A stretch of DNA of 64,000 nt. Source: an archaeon. Lineage in GTDB: Archaea; Thermoproteota; Nitrososphaeria; Nitrososphaerales; Gagatemarchaeaceae. Positions 26,461 to 40,419 of this stretch are shown in pieces. How positions within the stretch are numbered: position 1 is the first letter of the stretch; each line of letters starts with the position of its first letter. A model generated the notes under the pieces. The model saw only the letters and a list, made by a program, of their open reading frames with translations. It made no database searches and was not told the origin of the DNA. The stretch is taken from positions 744,001 to 808,000 of the forward strand of contig CP066694.1 in assembly GCA_016432545.1 (NCBI GenBank), in the 5' to 3' direction. Both the position numbers and the translations under genes were made by a program.

Positions 26461-27318
26461 TTAAAAGTTTGATTGGGCGATGCCTTCCGCGTTCCTCGAC
26501 GCGGCCCGTCTGAGGATGTTCGGAACCTCGCGGACGACCGCCGCGACACGGAAGGAGCAGACTTCGTCGCCGTGCGTGACGCACTGCGCCTCGGAGACGT
26601 CGAAGGGTGCCCCGAAGAGACCCGACATGAACCCTCTCAGGTGCGCCCTGAAGAAGACGCTCTTCTGGCGGATGCGCCTCTTGGAGGAGGCCTCGCACTC
26701 GAAGAGCCCCTTTGCGTGGACGACGACTGGGAACTCGGACGACTTTGACCTTTCGATGGAGACTTCCGCGTACCCTAGGGCCGAGTAGGCGCTGAGGAGC
26801 TCGTCGAGCTGTGCGACCGCGAAGTCGTGCCCAAAGTCTTCCAGCATCTCGGTCGCGGATTGGCGCCCCATCGCCTCGGCCATCTGGTCGATGATCGTTC
26901 CCGCTCCGCTGCCGAAGACGCTCCAGAGCCTTAGGAGCATCTCGTTTAGGGCCTCTGCCCTCATGATGACCGCCTTCCTTCCGGCCCACTGGACCGGGAA
27001 GTGCTGCTTGTCGACCATGAACCCGTCCTCAGACGCCACGACGTCCACCGACTCGACCACGTCGATCGATTGGAGGGTGCTCTTGAACTCCGAGATCCCG
27101 CCCATCGCGTCGGTGACGTCAGCGAAGAAGCTCCAGGTGGCGACAGGGGAAGCGCTCGGCGCGTTCATGAACCCTGAGAGCATGTTGACATCGAGGTCAG
27201 ATACCGCCTGGCTGCACTTTGCCAGAGCTCCCTTGACGTTCTTGACCCGAATGACGACTTCCGCCAGCCGGCGGCCGGGGGCGTACTCCCAGATTTCCAC
27301 ATTCTTTGGATATCGCAT
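26461..27318 (-). CDS. ACT-like plus V4R-domain protein
   Basis: A 285-residue cytosolic protein. The N-terminal 85 residues form an ACT-like ligand-binding fold (EVVIRVKNVKGALAKCSQAVSDL). The rest is a V4R domain (about 125-265) ending with the family signature QCVTHGDEVCSFRV and an upstream FECEASSKRRIRQKSVFFRAH. V4R domains bind small hydrophobic molecules or metals and occur in regulators and TRAPP-like proteins. Cysteines near 211, 254 and 262 could bind zinc. A TATA box (CTTTATTTAG, about 27348-27357) lies upstream of ATG 27318. Confidence 0.7.
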   Translation of the reverse strand: MRYPKNVEIWEYAPGRRLAEVVIRVKNVKGALAKCSQAVSDLDVNMLSGFMNAPSASPVATWSFFADVTDAMGGISEFKSTLQSIDVVESVDVVASEDGFMVDKQHFPVQWAGRKAVIMRAEALNEMLLRLWSVFGSGAGTIIDQMAEAMGRQSATEMLEDFGHDFAVAQLDELLSAYSALGYAEVSIERSKSSEFPVVVHAKGLFECEASSKRRIRQKSVFFRAHLRGFMSGLFGAPFDVSEAQCVTHGDEVCSFRVAAVVREVPNILRRAASRNAEGIAQSNF

Positions 27319-28800: not shown

Positions 28801-28916
28801 ACTGCGCCTACGCATGATACGGACTCAACATAACTGCGTGAAATCGCAAGTTGAAATCGCCCTTTCCCGGGCCGCAGGCCCCTGACAGGCTCCAATTAGC
28901 CCGCCAAGCCCTAAAT

Positions 28917-29651
28917 ATGGTCGCAGGGTCTGATTTGCGAGCCTCTCTGTCTGTCAGCACCCAGGAGAAGCACCCGCACATCCCCGCCAGGCACATAATG
29001 GACAGGATTGTGCTCGGAGGGAGCGACGGGGCGATAGAGTGCGTCGCCATGGCCGCGGCCCTCAACGGGGCGGGGGTAGCGTTCGGGACCGTCCTGATAG
29101 CCGGGCTCGCCTTCGCGCTGGCCGGAGGGGCGTCGATGTTCTTCAGCTCCTACCTTGCTAGGAGGTCAGAGATCGGGGCGCTGAAGATGGACATCGCACG
29201 TGAGAAGATGGAGATCGAGTCCGAGCCAGAGGAGGAGAGGGCAGAGCTCGAGGCGCTCCTGAAGGAAGAGGGATACGAGCAGAGAGAGGTCGACGTCATC
29301 ATGGGAAGGCTGGTCAAGAACAAGGAGCTGTGGCTGAGGGAGCAGCTGAGGCACGAGCTCCGGGTCAACGTCGAGGACCTCGAGACCGACCCGCTCCTTG
29401 GCCCCGGGCTTGCGGGCGCGGCCTTCTTCGGGACCGCAATCCTGGCGATCGCTGCCTACACGCTCGCCCTGGAGAGGGTCGAGACCCTGCTGCTCTCGGT
29501 CGTGCTGTCACTGCTCGCACTCTTCTCGCTGAGCTCGAGGCTCTTCACTCCTACCCACTTCAGCGCGAAGGCCGGACTCGAGTCTGCGGCCGTAGGGGGG
29601 GTCGCTGCGGGCGCTCTCTATTCGATAGGCCTGCTGATAGGGTCGCTGTGA
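28917..29651 (+). CDS. VIT1/CCC1-family metal transporter
   Basis: About 244 residues. HIMDRIVLGGSDGAIECVAMAAALNGAG is the typical first helix pair of vacuolar iron transporter/CCC1 proteins, followed by a helix ending in FFSSYLARRSE, a long acidic cytoplasmic insertion (about residues 100-175) that in family members binds metal, and three C-terminal helices. It is predicted to move Fe2+ or Mn2+ across the membrane. ATG 28917 is given; later starts near 28998 are possible because TATA-like TAAATATGG overlaps 28912-28920. Confidence 0.75.
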   Translation: MVAGSDLRASLSVSTQEKHPHIPARHIMDRIVLGGSDGAIECVAMAAALNGAGVAFGTVLIAGLAFALAGGASMFFSSYLARRSEIGALKMDIAREKMEIESEPEEERAELEALLKEEGYEQREVDVIMGRLVKNKELWLREQLRHELRVNVEDLETDPLLGPGLAGAAFFGTAILAIAAYTLALERVETLLLSVVLSLLALFSLSSRLFTPTHFSAKAGLESAAVGGVAAGALYSIGLLIGSL

Positions 29652-29654
29652 GGG

Positions 29655-31073
29655 TCAGGCGCCTATCTTCCCGGCCATCTTCAGGAAGTCCGAACCCTTG
29701 CCGGTCCGCTCGTAAAGCACTCTGTTCCTGCCCTTCACGGTGGTGACCCCCACTCTCGAGACCAGTTGAAGGGCTTCGAGCTCCTCAAGGTGCTGGTAGA
29801 TGCTTGCGGTCGTGATCGACCTGGTGGAGGAGAGCTCCTTCCAGAGGTCGTAGCCGAAGCCGGGGCGCCCGAGGAGCCTGAGGATGGTCATCTTGGTCTC
29901 GCCCACCTGGGAAGGAGCCGGTTCCGCGCCGCGGACCGGGAGGGAGCGTGCCGCCCTAGCGATCCTGGAGACGACTCGGGTGTCCTTCAAGCCCGCACCA
30001 GTGATTACGCAGACCACAGTCTCGTCCCTGTCGAGCGCCCCCACCTTCCTTGCTGAGTGAAGGCAGGCCACGGCGGAGGCGGAGGCGGGCTCCGCGAAGA
30101 TCCCCTCGCTGCGGGCAAGTAGGCTGGTGGCTCGTATCGTCTCGTCTGCAGTCACGTCGATGGTGGTCCCTCCTGAGGCCCTCACCGACCTCTTGGCCTC
30201 CTCGAGCAGTATTGGGTCAGACTCCTCGAGTTCGGTGAGGTTGCTCGGGTCGCCCCGGGTCTTCCTTGAGTTCGGAGGCCTTTCCCTAGAAGTGGCCCCG
30301 GCCATGCGCGCGCCGATGAGCCGGGTCTGACCGCCCTCCGTGAGCCCCGCCTCCTTGAGCTGCTCGAGGGCCCTCCACACCATGGTCAGGTGGCCGCCCG
30401 TCCCGATTGGGAGGACAATCGCGTCTGGCGGCGCCCACTTCATTTCCTGGACGACCTCAAGGCAGGTTGTCTTCTCTCCCTCGAGGAAGTATGGGTTGGC
30501 CGCGTCGACCTCAAGGACTCTCCTGGAGGATCGTTCGACCGTGAGGGGGGCGGACGAGACCCCGACCTCCGCCCCAAACGCTATCATCTGGTAGAGCTTG
30601 CCTTGGTCAGTCGTCGGGCTTATGCGCACTTGCGAGGCGATCCCCGCCTTTGCGCAATAGGCAGAGAGAGAGGCCCCAAGGTTGCCGGTCGTCATGCAGG
30701 AGCATGAGACGACCCCGGCGCTCAGCGCGAGGCTTACCAGCAGCGTAGCCCCCCGGTCCATGAACGAACCCGTCGGGTTGCGGGTCTCGTCTTTGAGGAA
30801 GAGGCTGCGGAGTGAAAGTTCGTCGCCCAGCCGCCCGGACGGGAGCAGGGGAGTCGCGCCCTCGCCCAGGGTCACGATTTGCTCGGACGGAACCTCTGGC
30901 AGTAGCGCTCTGTACCTCCAGACACCGGAGGGCGGGGACTCGAAGTCCTCGCGTGCAACGCTCTTCAGCGCTTTTGGCACGAGCAGAGGAGGGCCGCCAC
31001 AGCTGGGACAGGTTGGCGCGAGGGAGTCGCTCTCGAATCCGTGCGCGCACTTCGTGCAACGGAGAGAAGTCAT
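29655..31073 (-). CDS. Threonine-synthase-like protein fused to a winged helix, PLP lysine replaced by Met
   Basis: A 472-residue fusion: zinc ribbon (CTKC and CPSC, residues 6-25), a fold-type II PLP-enzyme domain resembling threonine synthase (about 60-385) and a C-terminal PadR-like winged helix (about 395-472, ITTASIYQHLEELEALQLV). The motif that normally reads NPTGSFKDRG reads NPTGSFMDRG, so Met105 replaces the lysine forming the Schiff base with PLP. The phosphate-cup region (PIGTGGHLTMVW) and FAEPASASA are retained. It is thus probably a ligand-binding regulator and not an active ThrC. It diverges from an ECF S-component gene across 43 bases. Confidence 0.8.
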   Translation of the reverse strand: MTSLRCTKCAHGFESDSLAPTCPSCGGPPLLVPKALKSVAREDFESPPSGVWRYRALLPEVPSEQIVTLGEGATPLLPSGRLGDELSLRSLFLKDETRNPTGSFMDRGATLLVSLALSAGVVSCSCMTTGNLGASLSAYCAKAGIASQVRISPTTDQGKLYQMIAFGAEVGVSSAPLTVERSSRRVLEVDAANPYFLEGEKTTCLEVVQEMKWAPPDAIVLPIGTGGHLTMVWRALEQLKEAGLTEGGQTRLIGARMAGATSRERPPNSRKTRGDPSNLTELEESDPILLEEAKRSVRASGGTTIDVTADETIRATSLLARSEGIFAEPASASAVACLHSARKVGALDRDETVVCVITGAGLKDTRVVSRIARAARSLPVRGAEPAPSQVGETKMTILRLLGRPGFGYDLWKELSSTRSITTASIYQHLEELEALQLVSRVGVTTVKGRNRVLYERTGKGSDFLKMAGKIGA

Positions 31074-31093
31074 CCTTTCAGGCCCGCTCAGCC

Positions 31094-31102
31094 GATATAT
31101 AG
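31094..31102. promoter_or_regulatory. Near-palindromic TATA element between divergent genes
   Basis: GATATATAG lies in the 43-base gap between the threonine-synthase-like gene (start 31073, minus) and the ECF S-component gene (start 31117, plus). On the minus strand it is 25 nt from the ATG, ideal for a leaderless transcript. On the plus strand ATG 31117 is only 19 nt away, so if it works in that direction the start would be TTG 31150. Confidence 0.45.
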
Positions 31103-31116
31103 GTTGGGACTTTAAT

Positions 31117-31959
31117 ATGCCCGAGAGCGGGATTTGTGCGAAGGAAATCTTGGGCGCCCAGCTATCGGAGAGTCAGCGAAGGTCCAACAGCGTCACAGTC
31201 GCGGGAGCCGCAGTCTTCACTGCCTTTGTCGCCGCAGCGACCGCCCTCTTTGCGGTAAACCTACCGCTAGGCTACTTCAATGTCGGCGAGATTATGGTCT
31301 ACACTTCGGCGCTGTTGATGGGGCCCTATGTTGGGTTCTTTGCGGGCGGGTTCGGGTCCATGATTGCGGACCTCGCGACTGGATATCCACAGTATGCCGC
31401 CGGCACCTTCGTAATCAAGGGAGCCGAGGGGTTCATCGTGGGCTTCCTGTCCACGAGGGTCTTCTCGAGGCTCTCGAGGACCGAGTGGAGGGCGACCACA
31501 ATCGCGACGGGCGTGATCGTCTCGGTCCTGCTGGGGTACGTCGGTGTCACTTACCTGTCGGGCAGCTTTTCGATAGCCTTGGGCGGAACTCTGTACGTCC
31601 CCTGGTTCCTGGGCGGCAACTGGAGCGTCCCGGCCTATCAGGTCGACTTGGACGTACCGGCCTACTTCTGGGCGGGCCTAGCCGCTCTTGTCCTTGCTGT
31701 GCTCACAGTCGTGGCGACCCGGAGCGCGGGAGGGACGGGGAAGATGGCGCTTGCTGTACTTGTAGGAGGGGCAGAGATGGTCGCGGGGTACTTCCTTTAT
31801 GAGACGTACGCGTTGCAGCTGGGTAGCTACCCGCCCACAGAGGTCCCTTTCAACATCGCCCAGGCCCTCGTGGGGCTCATAGTGGCGGTGCCTCTTGTGA
31901 GGAGCGCGAAGAAGGTGGCGGGGCGCCGGGGGGCAAGGCCCCGGGGTTCAGTACCGTAG
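31117..31959 (+). CDS. ECF transporter S component (vitamin-type substrate binder)
   Basis: About 280 residues with six or seven hydrophobic helices. FNVGEIMVYTSALLMGPYVGFFAGGFGSMIADLATGYPQYA matches the second and third helices of energy-coupling-factor S components, membrane proteins that capture vitamins such as riboflavin, thiamine or pyridoxine for an ECF ABC importer. No EcfA or EcfT gene is in the window, so it would use a shared module or act alone. It is followed after 2 bases by an AIR-synthase-like gene, with which it likely forms an operon. TTG 31150 is an alternative start. The substrate is unknown. Confidence 0.75.
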   Translation: MPESGICAKEILGAQLSESQRRSNSVTVAGAAVFTAFVAAATALFAVNLPLGYFNVGEIMVYTSALLMGPYVGFFAGGFGSMIADLATGYPQYAAGTFVIKGAEGFIVGFLSTRVFSRLSRTEWRATTIATGVIVSVLLGYVGVTYLSGSFSIALGGTLYVPWFLGGNWSVPAYQVDLDVPAYFWAGLAALVLAVLTVVATRSAGGTGKMALAVLVGGAEMVAGYFLYETYALQLGSYPPTEVPFNIAQALVGLIVAVPLVRSAKKVAGRRGARPRGSVP

Positions 31960-31961
31960 GC

Positions 31962-32969
31962 ATGAAGTCGGGCGTGCTCAGGCCCGGCAAAGTTCCGATC
32001 GGCCTCCTCGAGAAGACGGTCCTCAGGATGACAGGGGCGAGTTCGAAATTGGAGGCGGTACCTCCGGGAGCGGGCCTTGACTTTGCTTCAGTCAGGGTAG
32101 GGAGAGAGTTCCTGCTGGTGTCTGCCGACCCGATCACCGGAGTCGAGCACAGGATCGGCGACTACGCGGTCCAGGTTACAGCCAACGACATCGCGACGAG
32201 CGGGAATCGACAGCAGTTCGCCGAGACTGTGATACTCCTCCCCGAGAAGTCCAGACCGGCTGACCTCGAGGAGATTGCGCACCAAATCCATTCCGCGGCC
32301 GAGAGGCTCGGAGTCACGATCCTCGGGGGGCACACCGAGGTTACGCCGGGGCTGAGGAGGCCGATCGTCTCTGTGACAGGCTTCAGCCTCGTGGACGCAT
32401 ACGTCTCTTCAGGAGGGGTGCGGCCCGGCGACACCCTCATGATGACAAAGACCGCTGGCATCGAAGGTACCGCGGTCCTGGCGTCCGAGGGAGGGCTTGA
32501 GGGAAGACTGAATCCGCGCGAGCTGAAGCGGGCTGGAGGATTTCTCTCGAGAATCTCTGTCGTGGAGGAGGGGGTGAAGGCCTTCGGGACTGGAGGGGTC
32601 CGCGCTATGCACGACTGTACCGAGGGAGGGGTCCTTGGCGCGGCCTTCGAGATGTCTGTGGCGTCAGGGGTCGGGTTCGAGCTTGTCGAGCGGGCGGTCC
32701 CGGTTGCGGCGGAGACCAGGAGAATCTGCGAGGCTCTCTCTCTAGACCCTCTGAGGCTCATCGCTTCGGGCGCCATGCTGATGGCCGTCAAGCCAGGAGA
32801 GGAGCGCAAGGTAGCAAAGGCCCTTCGCTCGATCGCCGAGACGACCGTGATCGGCTCTCTCGGAGGCACTGCCAGAGTCTGCGCGAGGGACGGAGGGAAG
32901 AAGGAGAAGCTGACCGAGGCGCCGGAAGACGAGTTATGGAGAGTGCTTCGCGCCGCTGGCCGGAGGTGA
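31962..32969 (+). CDS. AIR-synthase/HypE-like enzyme
   Basis: A 335-residue member of the PurM/ThiL/HypE/SelD ATP-binding superfamily. The N-terminal half carries SADPITG and VTANDIATSGNRQQF, which supply Mg-ATP-binding acidic residues, and GGHTEVTPG; the C-terminal half contains MHDCTEGGVLGAAFEM, the HypE-like DxTxGG motif. No hydrogenase genes are nearby, and many archaea carry HypE-like proteins of unsettled role. Cotranscription with an ECF vitamin transporter suggests a cofactor pathway, which is inference. Its 3' end overlaps the convergent topoisomerase gene by 36 bases. Confidence 0.75.
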   Translation: MKSGVLRPGKVPIGLLEKTVLRMTGASSKLEAVPPGAGLDFASVRVGREFLLVSADPITGVEHRIGDYAVQVTANDIATSGNRQQFAETVILLPEKSRPADLEEIAHQIHSAAERLGVTILGGHTEVTPGLRRPIVSVTGFSLVDAYVSSGGVRPGDTLMMTKTAGIEGTAVLASEGGLEGRLNPRELKRAGGFLSRISVVEEGVKAFGTGGVRAMHDCTEGGVLGAAFEMSVASGVGFELVERAVPVAAETRRICEALSLDPLRLIASGAMLMAVKPGEERKVAKALRSIAETTVIGSLGGTARVCARDGGKKEKLTEAPEDELWRVLRAAGRR

Positions 32970-37657: not shown

Positions 37658-38545
37658 TTGAAACAGTCCATGGTAGTCCTCCTCGTTGGAGCGCTCTTAC
37701 TTACAGCGGCCGCGCACGCGAGCGCCGGAAGTCCTCAGAGCACATCCTTCGTGATCCAGGTGTACTCGGACGGCTCATCGCTTCTGACGCAGAAGCTGGC
37801 CGTCCCCTCGGCATCGGCCTCGGTGGAGATCCCCCTCCTCTCGGAAGTCCTCTCCAACGTGGTCGCTACTGACCAGAACGGGTCTCCGCTCTCCTTCAAG
37901 ATATCCGGCTCGAACATCACGGTCTATACGCTCGGGGCGACCCAAGTCACCTTGATCTACGACACGCAGAGCTTGACGAACAAGACCGGGACAGTCTGGT
38001 CGCTGATCTTCGTGACCAGCTACAACACGACCGTAATCCTCCCGAAGTACTCGACGCTAAGTTATGTCTCGGGGACCACCTACTCCCTGAGCGTGCAGGA
38101 AGGCTCGCCCACGGTCACGATCGCTCCGGGCGCGTGGAAGCTCAGCTACGGGGTCTCGGCCGGGACCGGCGGCCCGGGAGGGACGACGACCCAGGGAGGG
38201 GGGCCGTTCGGGATTGTGATCGAAATCGGGTCCGGGGCCTCGCTTCTCGTGGTGCTCGTCGCGGTCGGGGCGGGCGGATTCTTGGCGTTCAGGTGGTGGA
38301 GAGGGAGGCTTGACCTTGGCGCACAGGGGAAGGACCTGAGGCAAGACGATGTGCAGGTGCTCGGCTTCATCAGGGAGAAGGGGGGCAAGGTGCTCGAGCC
38401 AGAGATCAGGACGAGGTTCGCGCTCCCGAAGACGTCGGCCTGGAGGCAGATCAAGCGATTGGAGCGGATGGGCTTCGTCAAGGTGACCAAGATCGGGTCG
38501 CAGAACCAGATAGAGCTTCTGAAAAATGGGGAACCTGGAGCTTAG
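37658..38545 (+). CDS. Membrane-spanning one-component regulator with cytoplasmic winged helix
   Basis: A 295-residue protein: signal peptide (about 5-23), an extracellular beta-sandwich sensor-like region (about 28-165), a Gly-rich linker, one transmembrane helix (about 185-212), then a cytoplasmic winged helix (about 225-290) with DVQVLGFIREKGGKVLEPEIRTRFALPKTSAWRQIKRLERMGFV. Such type-I membrane proteins with a C-terminal DNA-binding domain occur in archaea and could couple an external cue directly to transcription. TTG start. The convergent Ala-rich secreted protein gene overlaps its 3' end by 4 bases. Confidence 0.75.
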   Translation: MKQSMVVLLVGALLLTAAAHASAGSPQSTSFVIQVYSDGSSLLTQKLAVPSASASVEIPLLSEVLSNVVATDQNGSPLSFKISGSNITVYTLGATQVTLIYDTQSLTNKTGTVWSLIFVTSYNTTVILPKYSTLSYVSGTTYSLSVQEGSPTVTIAPGAWKLSYGVSAGTGGPGGTTTQGGGPFGIVIEIGSGASLLVVLVAVGAGGFLAFRWWRGRLDLGAQGKDLRQDDVQVLGFIREKGGKVLEPEIRTRFALPKTSAWRQIKRLERMGFVKVTKIGSQNQIELLKNGEPGA

Positions 38546-40419
38546 GCTTGGGCTGAGGAAGCCGCCTGAAGCTCCACGGTTGCGCTTGCCATCGCCTGCG
38601 CGCCGCCGGCTATGTCCAGGCTCGCGAAGAGCTGGACCGCCTGGTCGACGAAGGCGTTGGCCGATGCTACTTGGGATACCCTCGCTGAGATGTCGCTGTT
38701 GAGGTAGGCGCCCGCCGTCGCGACCGCTGCCGCTGTGGCGTGTGCCTGGGTTGCCAGGGACCCGGACGAGGTCGCCAGGGTGCCCGCCGCCGCACCGAAG
38801 GCCGACGCTCCGAGCTGGAGCGAAGACTGTGCCGCGGTGGTGAAGGAGAGGGCAGCCTGCGAATAGGCCTGGGCCGAGGTCTGGGCTGTGTTGAAGGCCG
38901 CTGCGCCCGTAGTGCTGAGCAGTTGCTGCTCCGTGAGGGCGAGCGAGACGATCGCGGTGACTGAGGATGTGAGGTTCTGAGACGCCGCGAAGTTGGCCAC
39001 TGCGGCGGAGAGGGACTGTGCCTTCGTCTGGGCCGCGCCGACAGCCGATGTCATGCCTGAGAGCGAGGTCCCGACTCCGGACGTGGTGGAGGTCACCGAG
39101 GAGGCCATGGTGTTGAGGGTCGCCTGGACCGCCAGGATCTGGGTGAGGTTCAGGGCGCCCGCTGTGGCGACGAAGGATGCGAGGTTGGTCTGCACGTTGT
39201 GGTATGCTGCGATGTATGCCGACCCAGCCGCTGCGGCGCCTGAAGCGTCCGCGGCAAGGACCGTGTTGTACGACGCGAATGCGCTGACTGTGGTGGATGA
39301 GAAGGCCGTAGCCTGTGAGGAGGCGGTGGAGATGGAGGTTGAGTACGTGGCCGCGGCGGACTGGGCCGCGACTATGGAGGCCGTCAGGCTGGCCGAGGAG
39401 GGAAGTCCGGCGACCAACGACTTGAGGGCCGTGAGGTTCGACTTGACGCTAGCCAGGAGGGCCTGGGACGTGGAGACCGAACTCGCGACAGCGCCAGTCC
39501 CTACGGACGAGATCGCCGCTGCGAGGGCGCTCGCGTTCGAGGAGACTGCGCCAGCCAGGGTGGCTTGCGCGCCGGTCGTCGAGTTGACTTGGGATGACAG
39601 CTGTGCGAGCTGGGTTTGGACGGACTGCTGCGAGAGGATTGTGGAATTGGCGCTGGCGGTGAGGCTCGCGAGGACGTTGGAGACGAAGTTGTGGGCACGC
39701 ACTAGGTAGGTTGTGGAGGCGACAGTCGAGAGCGCTGCGGTGGCCTTGGCGAACTCCGCCCTTGCTCTGACGAGAAGGGCAGCCGCTCGAGCCAGGTTGA
39801 CCTGGACCGAGGCGTTTGCCTTGGCCTGGGCCACGAAGCTGGCCGCTTGCGTCACGGTGGCGCTGGCGTTGGCGAGGTGCGCCGAGACCTGGGCGCAGGC
39901 CTGAGCATAGGTGCTGGCGTTGTTGGTCGTGGAAGAGGCTCCTGCGCAGGCTTGTGCCGCGATCTGGGCGACTATGGAGACTGTCGCGTTGACTTCGGCG
40001 ACGGCACCCGCGGCCGCGTCGACGTCCACCGACGCTTCTAGCCCTGCGCTCCTGAGGCCCGCTGAAGCAAAGATGCCGGCCTTGGTGTAGGCGAGCATGG
40101 CTGCCTGAGCGCCCTGGAGGCCTGCGGTCAGGTTGCTCCCGGAGGCGAGGGATGCGTTGGCTATGGCCATCTGGGCGTCTCCTGACGCGAAGAGGCTCTG
40201 GGCCAAGGAGACGTCGAGGGAGTGGATCGCTGCTGCCGTGATTGTGCCCGAGGCGTAGGAGCGGGCTGAGAGGGCGACGTTCACTGCGTTTTGGAGCTGC
40301 GCGCCGGTTGTGGCGCCGCTGGTGACTTGGGCGAGTACTGCGATTGGGACTATTGTCCCGGCGACCAGTAGGCAAGCCACGGCCGCCGGTAGGAGGGTTC
40401 GTTCGGACCGAGTTTTCAT
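38542..40419 (-). CDS. Large secreted Ala/Ser-rich helical protein
   Basis: A 625-residue protein with a signal peptide (about residues 9-31) and an extremely Ala/Ser/Thr-rich mature part with regularly spaced hydrophobics (e.g. VSIVAQIAAQACAG, TLNTMASSVTSTTSGVGTSL), predicted as long alpha-helical or coiled-coil segments. Two cysteines (CAGAS, QACAQ) near residues 158 and 174. No C-terminal anchor. The promoter is nearly identical to that of the 40733-41773 gene, including a palindromic operator, so the two secreted proteins are likely coregulated. Function unknown; a fibrous surface or adhesive layer is possible. Confidence 0.7.
   Translation of the reverse strand: MKTRSERTLLPAAVACLLVAGTIVPIAVLAQVTSGATTGAQLQNAVNVALSARSYASGTITAAAIHSLDVSLAQSLFASGDAQMAIANASLASGSNLTAGLQGAQAAMLAYTKAGIFASAGLRSAGLEASVDVDAAAGAVAEVNATVSIVAQIAAQACAGASSTTNNASTYAQACAQVSAHLANASATVTQAASFVAQAKANASVQVNLARAAALLVRARAEFAKATAALSTVASTTYLVRAHNFVSNVLASLTASANSTILSQQSVQTQLAQLSSQVNSTTGAQATLAGAVSSNASALAAAISSVGTGAVASSVSTSQALLASVKSNLTALKSLVAGLPSSASLTASIVAAQSAAATYSTSISTASSQATAFSSTTVSAFASYNTVLAADASGAAAAGSAYIAAYHNVQTNLASFVATAGALNLTQILAVQATLNTMASSVTSTTSGVGTSLSGMTSAVGAAQTKAQSLSAAVANFAASQNLTSSVTAIVSLALTEQQLLSTTGAAAFNTAQTSAQAYSQAALSFTTAAQSSLQLGASAFGAAAGTLATSSGSLATQAHATAAAVATAGAYLNSDISARVSQVASANAFVDQAVQLFASLDIAGGAQAMASATVELQAASSAQA

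Follow-up and report, generated by a model that had tools for sequence, protein, structure and literature searches.

A threonine-synthase fold without its lysine as a predicted vitamin B6 regulator in Archaea

What does a threonine-synthase-like protein do when it lacks the lysine that should hold PLP and carries a winged helix at its C-terminus? This question is raised by a minus-strand gene in the window, the whole stretch of 64,000 nucleotides from an archaeal genome (Nitrososphaerales, Gagatemarchaeaceae) that was analyzed here. An earlier note on this DNA had suggested that the protein is a counterpart of MocR with fold type II, sensing PLP, an amino acid, or a vitamin and regulating a divergent ECF transporter gene and the AIR-synthase-like gene behind it. 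Our comparison of genomes supports this suggestion and narrows it to vitamin B6, on the grounds of linkage to S-components of the HmpT/PdxU family, the presence of pdxST in their place in five genomes, and a conserved palindrome that recurs at promoters away from the regulator gene. Binding remains unproven.

A threonine-synthase-like protein without the PLP lysine

The gene and the parts of its product are as follows:

29655..31073, minus strand: threonine-synthase-like protein without the PLP lysine and with a C-terminal winged helix, 472 amino acids, ATG start (predicted B6 regulator)
30999..31058, minus strand: N-terminal zinc ribbon, Cys4 (C6, C9, C22, C25)
29997..30875, minus strand: PALP domain (PLP enzyme fold type II), residues 67-359; PF00291, 183.7 bits
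30759..30761, minus strand: codon of Met105, which replaces the PLP lysine (equivalent to Lys61 of Thermus thermophilus threonine synthase, ThrS)
29679..29885, minus strand: PadR-type winged helix, residues 397-465; PF03551, 32.1 bits, Pfam cut-off 27

Two features that the earlier note had read from the translation, a methionine in place of the SFKDRG lysine and a PadR-like winged helix at the C-terminus, are both confirmed: the motif is NPTGSFMDRG with methionine at residue 105, and the match to PF03551 lies above the family cut-off. The interval given there, 29655-31117, comprises the open reading frame of the regulator plus the 43-base gap to the divergent S-component gene, a distance that is correct when counted from the ATG at 31117. 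The zinc ribbon had gone unmentioned; its cysteines are invariant in 19 close homologues and more than 90% conserved in 60 sequences. Also invariant in 60 sequences, which cover the two subfamilies A and B described below, are K394, Y408, Y426, and H428 in the winged-helix region. The AlphaFold model (mean pLDDT 87.9) predicts a threonine synthase fold and a winged helix with pLDDT mostly 91-95, preceded by a flexible linker (residues 377-387), and the best structural matches of this model are solved threonine synthases (Foldseek E 1e-23). According to Pfam, the C-terminal PadR-type domain is the only winged helix of the protein, and the N-terminal winged helix of the GntR type is absent. The closest NCBIfam model, PRK05638 (NF004170, ‘threonine synthase’), covers both the PALP domain and the winged helix, but with 240 bits the protein stays below its cut-off of 421.

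In a single genome, one codon change in an assembly or in a decaying pseudogene would suffice to remove the lysine. Scored across the family, as the earlier note had proposed, this position holds lysine in none of 79 distinct winged-helix homologues (52 of subfamily A and 27 of subfamily B, after removal of sequences at least 95% alike), which excludes chance by far, and the lysine is retained in all 20 sampled homologues without a winged helix. Subfamily A has leucine in 19 sequences, isoleucine in 17, methionine in 8, valine in 5, threonine in 2, and asparagine in 1; subfamily B, whose members reach or approach the PRK05638 cut-off, has arginine in all 27. A search of 60 relatives returned full-length winged-helix homologues at 37-55% identity, none of them with lysine. 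A scan of named genomes found winged-helix homologues in Nitrososphaerales, other Thaumarchaeota, Bathyarchaeota, Thorarchaeota, Lokiarchaeota, Terraquivivens, Brockarchaeota, Methanosuratincola, Thermoprotei, and Thermoplasmata, with I, L, M, V, T, or N replacing the lysine wherever the homologue covers the position. The search and the scan overlap, as some of their genomes are identical records. The homologues are open frames at about 30-55% identity and come from many lineages, so that we see virtually no chance of an artifact; the uniform pattern across the family rules out a sequencing error or a pseudogene.

In a tree of 31 subfamily A sequences, 15 subfamily B sequences, and 20 homologues without a winged helix, built from the PALP core alone with the lysine column omitted, subfamilies A and B each form one group (SH-aLRT 96 and 99, respectively). 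Which two of A, B, and the lysine-bearing group are closest was not settled in this quick tree, so one or two losses of the lysine are both possible. One genome (G521) has regulators of both subfamilies (L168/L198 and L230). Every examined member of the PRK05638 equivalog (L164-L193) has a C-terminal winged helix and arginine at the position of the PLP lysine, and the name ‘threonine synthase’ for NF004170/PRK05638 appears to be wrong. An equivalog of that name with arginine at the catalytic lysine misleads pathway reconstruction: genomes without threonine synthesis get annotated as having it.

To describe the pocket, we took T. thermophilus ThrS as the reference. Its Asn87 corresponds to Asn131 of the regulator, which is invariant; its phosphate loop (187-190) to a G-x-G, of which both glycines are invariant in A and B; and its Thr317 to Thr358, invariant in A and present in 12 of 15 sequences of B. 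Asn154, Ser155, and Arg160 of ThrS, which we take to bind the phosphate of the substrate phosphohomoserine, correspond to D190, A191, and F196, and these positions are conserved in neither A nor B but are kept by most lysine-bearing enzymes. Since the contacts to PLP are retained and the lysine and the N154/S155/R160 positions are lost, the cofactor site appears to have been kept and the catalytic residue and substrate site to be gone. Could the protein nevertheless be an active enzyme that makes up for the lysine with a different residue or with a mechanism that needs no aldimine, the winged helix being incidental? The retained overall fold and PLP pocket would be compatible with this, and K94, K201, and K363 are invariant. 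These three lysines are, however, equally conserved in ordinary threonine synthases, so there is no new substitute lysine among them, and we reject a substitute lysine on this ground. Moreover, the lysine position tolerates I, L, M, V, T, N, or R, the phosphohomoserine-site residues are lost, the host lacks the pathway, and the gene has a conserved palindrome and conserved linkage (see below). We therefore regard an active enzyme as very unlikely.

The host genome (G000) consists of one contig of 1,504,237 bases and is 100% complete, so gene absences can be judged. No homoserine dehydrogenase was found in this complete genome, and none of its six PALP proteins is a lysine-bearing threonine synthase. 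Thus, there is no threonine pathway for the regulator to serve, which rules out a role as the threonine synthase of the host. The earlier note had held that its reading would fall if sister genomes all kept the lysine and the genome had no other thrC; the second part is true of the host, but sister genomes do not keep the lysine. Several relatives with homoserine dehydrogenase (e.g. G027, G031, G035, G039, G042, and G056) have extra ThrC-like proteins of ordinary length. As the host has the regulator without the pathway and these relatives hold separate ThrC-like proteins, the regulator gene does not track threonine synthesis.

These absences also bear on the idea of a regulator at the same locus whose ligand is not free PLP but an amino acid or intermediate, such as threonine, homoserine, phosphohomoserine, or the external aldimine of PLP with an amino acid. 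Descent from threonine synthase speaks for such a ligand. Going by lysine mutants of PLP enzymes, the absence of the lysine could also allow a stable external aldimine to form with an amino acid. In addition, four subfamily B loci have a divergent, lysine-bearing threonine synthase, which could mean an amino-acid signal at those loci. Against this stand the loss of the residues for the phosphate of phosphohomoserine, the persistence of the regulator gene where threonine synthesis is absent, and the linked genes, which serve B6 transport or synthesis. Overall, we consider an amino-acid ligand unlikely and free PLP the preferred reading.

Divergent genes and the promoter palindrome

The region between the regulator and its divergent neighbors, and these neighbors themselves, contain the following features:

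31092..31103, no strand assigned: palindromic operator (predicted, no binding data); the minus strand reads CCTATATATCGG, and the consensus of the family is CCTATATATAGG
31110..31117, no strand assigned: TATA-like element; in the direction of the regulator, the family consensus is ATATATAAG, with position-specific conservation across 41 distinct elements
31117..31959, plus strand: ECF transporter S-component, HmpT/PdxU family; PF07155, 5e-26
31962..32969, plus strand: AIR-synthase-like protein, directly after the S-component stop; PF00586/PF02769

The ATG at 31117 overlaps the promoter element, and the true start of the S-component therefore probably lies further downstream. An S-component gene stands head-to-head with the regulator at 28 of 50 subfamily A loci, including loci from Asgard archaea, Bathyarchaeota, Terraquivivens, and Thermoprotei, and lies downstream of the regulator on the same strand at 15 of 20 subfamily B loci. 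Outside regulator loci such genes are rare and the copy is usually single (18 of 61 relatives); PdxS is found alongside in 3 of the 18 relatives with an S-component (G033, G039, and G042). All 23 aligned S-components match PF07155, a family that includes the B6 transporters PdxU and PdxU2/HmpT (PMC9997740). A profile of the S-components found only one chain in the PDB, HmpT (4HZU-S, E 1.8e-16), and chain S of 4HZU is also the top structural match of the predicted model. HmpT was originally thought to be an HMP carrier, but it carries pyridoxamine, as shown by mass spectrometry (PMC4860826). Four of its six ligand residues (Glu41, Tyr120, Asn140, and Gln143) are identical and invariant in the archaeal S-components. 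The likeness to HmpT/PdxU2 (PF07155, COG4720) thus consists of the shared Pfam family, the sole PDB relative, the best structural match, and these four residues, whereas the archaeal family differs in having lysine and glutamate in place of His84 and Gln87, and the S-component of the window has an extra strand-rich loop. As for EcfT, one PF02361 protein is encoded elsewhere in the host genome. The AIR-synthase-like gene probably forms one operon with the S-component gene, which it often follows; at four subfamily B loci it lies in line with the S-component gene. Its product is HypE/ThiL/SelD-like according to NCBIfam and PDB matches, and the superfamily includes the kinase ThiL.

In five genomes, a pdxS-pdxT operon takes the divergent position: G011 (JOPF187; L075 and L152), a bathyarchaeote (QZM; L092), SKYB109 (L108, the same record as L242/G460), G426 (L238), and G536 (L262). 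The gap between pdxST and the regulator contains the palindrome or the variant CCCATATATGGA, the latter in L092 and G536. Two further genomes (G440 and G419) have the palindrome before pdxS with no regulator in the stretch examined; their regulator genes are on other contigs, each with a palindrome of its own. PdxS was not found in the complete host genome, and in a sample of the phylum, in which the winged-helix matches listed were read by hand, it is rarer in genomes with the winged-helix protein (7 of 55) than in the others (110 of 195). This association is confounded by phylogeny, as related genomes are not independent.

Aligned intergenic gaps share the arrangement ATATATAAG-N6-CCTATATATAGG from Asgard archaea to Nitrososphaerales, also before pdxST. 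If up to three mismatches are allowed, 45 of 50 subfamily A promoters have the palindrome, and in 14 promoters it is perfect; shuffled upstream sequences seldom get to two mismatches. A degenerate 13-mer of the palindrome occurs once in the whole 1.5 Mb host genome, at the predicted operator of the window. When 300 genomes of the phylum were searched with a 24-base pattern, the perfect matches listed were all at the regulator gene, and most of the one-mismatch matches among those listed were at the regulator or S-component (both judged by hand). Matches of this long pattern with two mismatches were not used, owing to similar counts in a reversed control. The element also precedes S-component genes that lack a regulator within 3 kb in five genomes (G533, G513, G453, G584, and G554), as does the variant CCCATATATG in two others (G423 and G437); five of these seven genomes (G453, G513, G554, G423, and G437) are known to have a regulator gene at another location. 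The palindrome sits between the TATA-like element and the regulator start, and just upstream of that element for the divergent gene. Such an arrangement points to autorepression together with control of the other promoter via the TFB site, and the TATA-like element, whose role is likewise inferred, probably serves both divergent promoters. For subfamily B promoters, we found neither CCTATATATAGG nor any shared palindrome. Three deep Thermoprotei loci (L099, L106, and L107) keep the divergent S-component with another promoter sequence, ATAAATATATT; the regulator site seems to have changed there.

Not all loci follow these arrangements. At 19 of 50 subfamily A loci (e.g. L064, L069, L085, and L105), neither the S-component nor pdxST stands head-to-head with the regulator. 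L069, L070, and L153-L155 have the regulator and the palindrome with neither S-component nor pdxST, and their divergent gene encodes an APC-type permease, possibly an alternative B6 transporter. Two bathyarchaeal loci (L080 and L087) have a perfect palindrome and, nearby on the opposite strand, a DMT/EamA-type permease. The four subfamily B loci with a lysine-bearing threonine synthase divergent to the regulator are L202, L208, L212, and L213. Downstream of the regulator, the window encodes a VIT1-family protein (28851-29651), which is found beside the regulator in many Nitrososphaerales loci. ThiD-ThiN or ThiR-like genes adjoin or lie near the AIR-synthase-like gene at L071, L083, L094, and L110.

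Could the locus instead regulate the uptake of the thiamine precursor HMP or of riboflavin, with the S-component as an HMP or riboflavin transporter and the AIR-synthase-like protein in a ThiL-like role? PF07155 is named after riboflavin, HmpT was first assigned to HMP (PMC4860826), the AIR-synthase-like protein is similar to both ThiL and HypE, its gene has thiamine genes nearby at the few loci just named, and ThiC is missing from the whole family of the host. The sole solved relative of the S-component binds pyridoxamine, however; in five genomes the position of the S-component gene is occupied by pdxST, again with the palindrome or its variant, which also occurs before pdxS away from the regulator; and a sensor with a PLP fold has no evident means of reading thiamine. 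The distribution of ThiC does not discriminate between B1 and B6, as the gene is absent throughout the family of the host. We find control of HMP or riboflavin uptake quite improbable, but the thiamine genes near some clusters and the missing ThiC mean that a thiamine-precursor transporter is not fully excluded.

Predicted role and relation to known regulators

We propose, as the probable reading, that the protein is a lysine-less PLP sensor of fold type II that controls the acquisition of vitamin B6 and would thus be the archaeal counterpart of PdxR, with the binding of PLP and DNA and the sign of the regulation still untested. The loss of the lysine, the retention of the pocket, the gene linkage, the conserved palindrome, and the palindromes at B6 genes away from the regulator are seen in the sequences themselves, while PLP as the ligand, binding to the palindrome, autorepression, and induction of acquisition genes at low PLP are inferred. 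Apart from the lack of binding data, several observations speak against the proposal: the 19 subfamily A loci with neither head-to-head partner, the thiamine genes near some clusters and the missing ThiC, the two changed HmpT ligand residues, the three relatives that have both an S-component and PdxS, and, in subfamily B, the missing CCTATATATAGG and the four divergent threonine synthases. The protein would be a one-component transcription regulator built on a threonine-synthase fold that has presumably lost the ability to catalyze. Its pocket, without the aldimine lysine, would most likely bind free PLP non-covalently and so gauge cellular vitamin B6, and the C-terminal winged helix would bind CCTATATATMGG, the palindrome in the gap that separates the regulator gene from a divergent B6 acquisition gene. 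The putative target in B6 auxotrophs such as the host is the HmpT/PdxU-type ECF S-component with its AIR-synthase-like partner, and in other genomes pdxST. Like PdxR in bacteria, the regulator may thereby control B6 uptake or synthesis and also the expression of its own gene.

PdxR/MocR regulators, which belong to the GntR family, control pdxST, pdxK, and pdxU and have been reported absent from Archaea (PMC5320631). In Streptococcus pyogenes, PdxR represses its own gene and, under B6 scarcity, activates the pdxKU operon (PMC11619246); by analogy, the archaeal protein would probably raise the expression of the S-component and AIR-synthase-like genes, or of pdxST, at low PLP. A PLP-dependent repressor and an apo-activator cannot be distinguished from sequence. 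The archaeal protein shares with PdxR/MocR the combination of a PLP-enzyme fold and a winged helix, an inverted-repeat site in the shared promoter region, and linkage to a pdxU-like S-component and to pdxST with a conserved site, but no known pdxK. MocR proteins, however, are of fold type I with an N-terminal GntR winged helix, whereas the archaeal protein is of fold type II with a C-terminal PadR-type winged helix and lacks the aldimine lysine. Because the sensor fold, the winged-helix family, and the domain order all differ, it is proposed to work like PdxR without being a member of that family. With threonine synthase (ThrC), it shares the fold, ancestry, most PLP contacts, and the zinc ribbon, which is common to archaeal ThrC; it differs in the loss of the PLP lysine and of the phosphohomoserine-site residues, and in the lack of a pathway in the host. 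The winged helix resembles PadR-family regulators above the Pfam cut-off but is fused behind a full PLP-fold domain, unlike a stand-alone PadR.

The AIR-synthase-like gene stands where the streptococcal locus has pdxK, and the kinase ThiL belongs to the superfamily of its product, which makes a role as a B6 kinase, perhaps of a new type, conceivable; this is inference only, with no activity data. Taken further, there may be an archaeal B6 salvage module from Asgard archaea to Nitrososphaeria, in which a lysine-free regulator with the threonine-synthase fold reads free PLP without a covalent bond, an S-component imports a B6 vitamer, and a kinase of the AIR-synthase fold phosphorylates this vitamer instead of the ribokinase-type PdxK, a scheme that we offer only tentatively.

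No paper on PRK05638 or on a regulator with a threonine-synthase or other fold-type II domain was found in the open literature (subscription journals and preprints were outside our scope). The protein would be a predicted B6 regulator for a domain of life from which MocR has been reported absent, and, if the prediction is true, an independent example of how a PLP enzyme became a transcription factor, here one of fold type II that lacks the Schiff-base lysine. The prediction also suggests B6 dependence in many uncultured archaea. With a 12-base site and a defined ligand, it can be tested directly with purified protein. Elsewhere in the window, we observed an Ala/Ser/Thr-rich protein of 625 amino acids without a Pfam match (38542-40419) and an ACT-like region joined to a V4R domain, weakly similar to the regulator MsvR (26461-27318).
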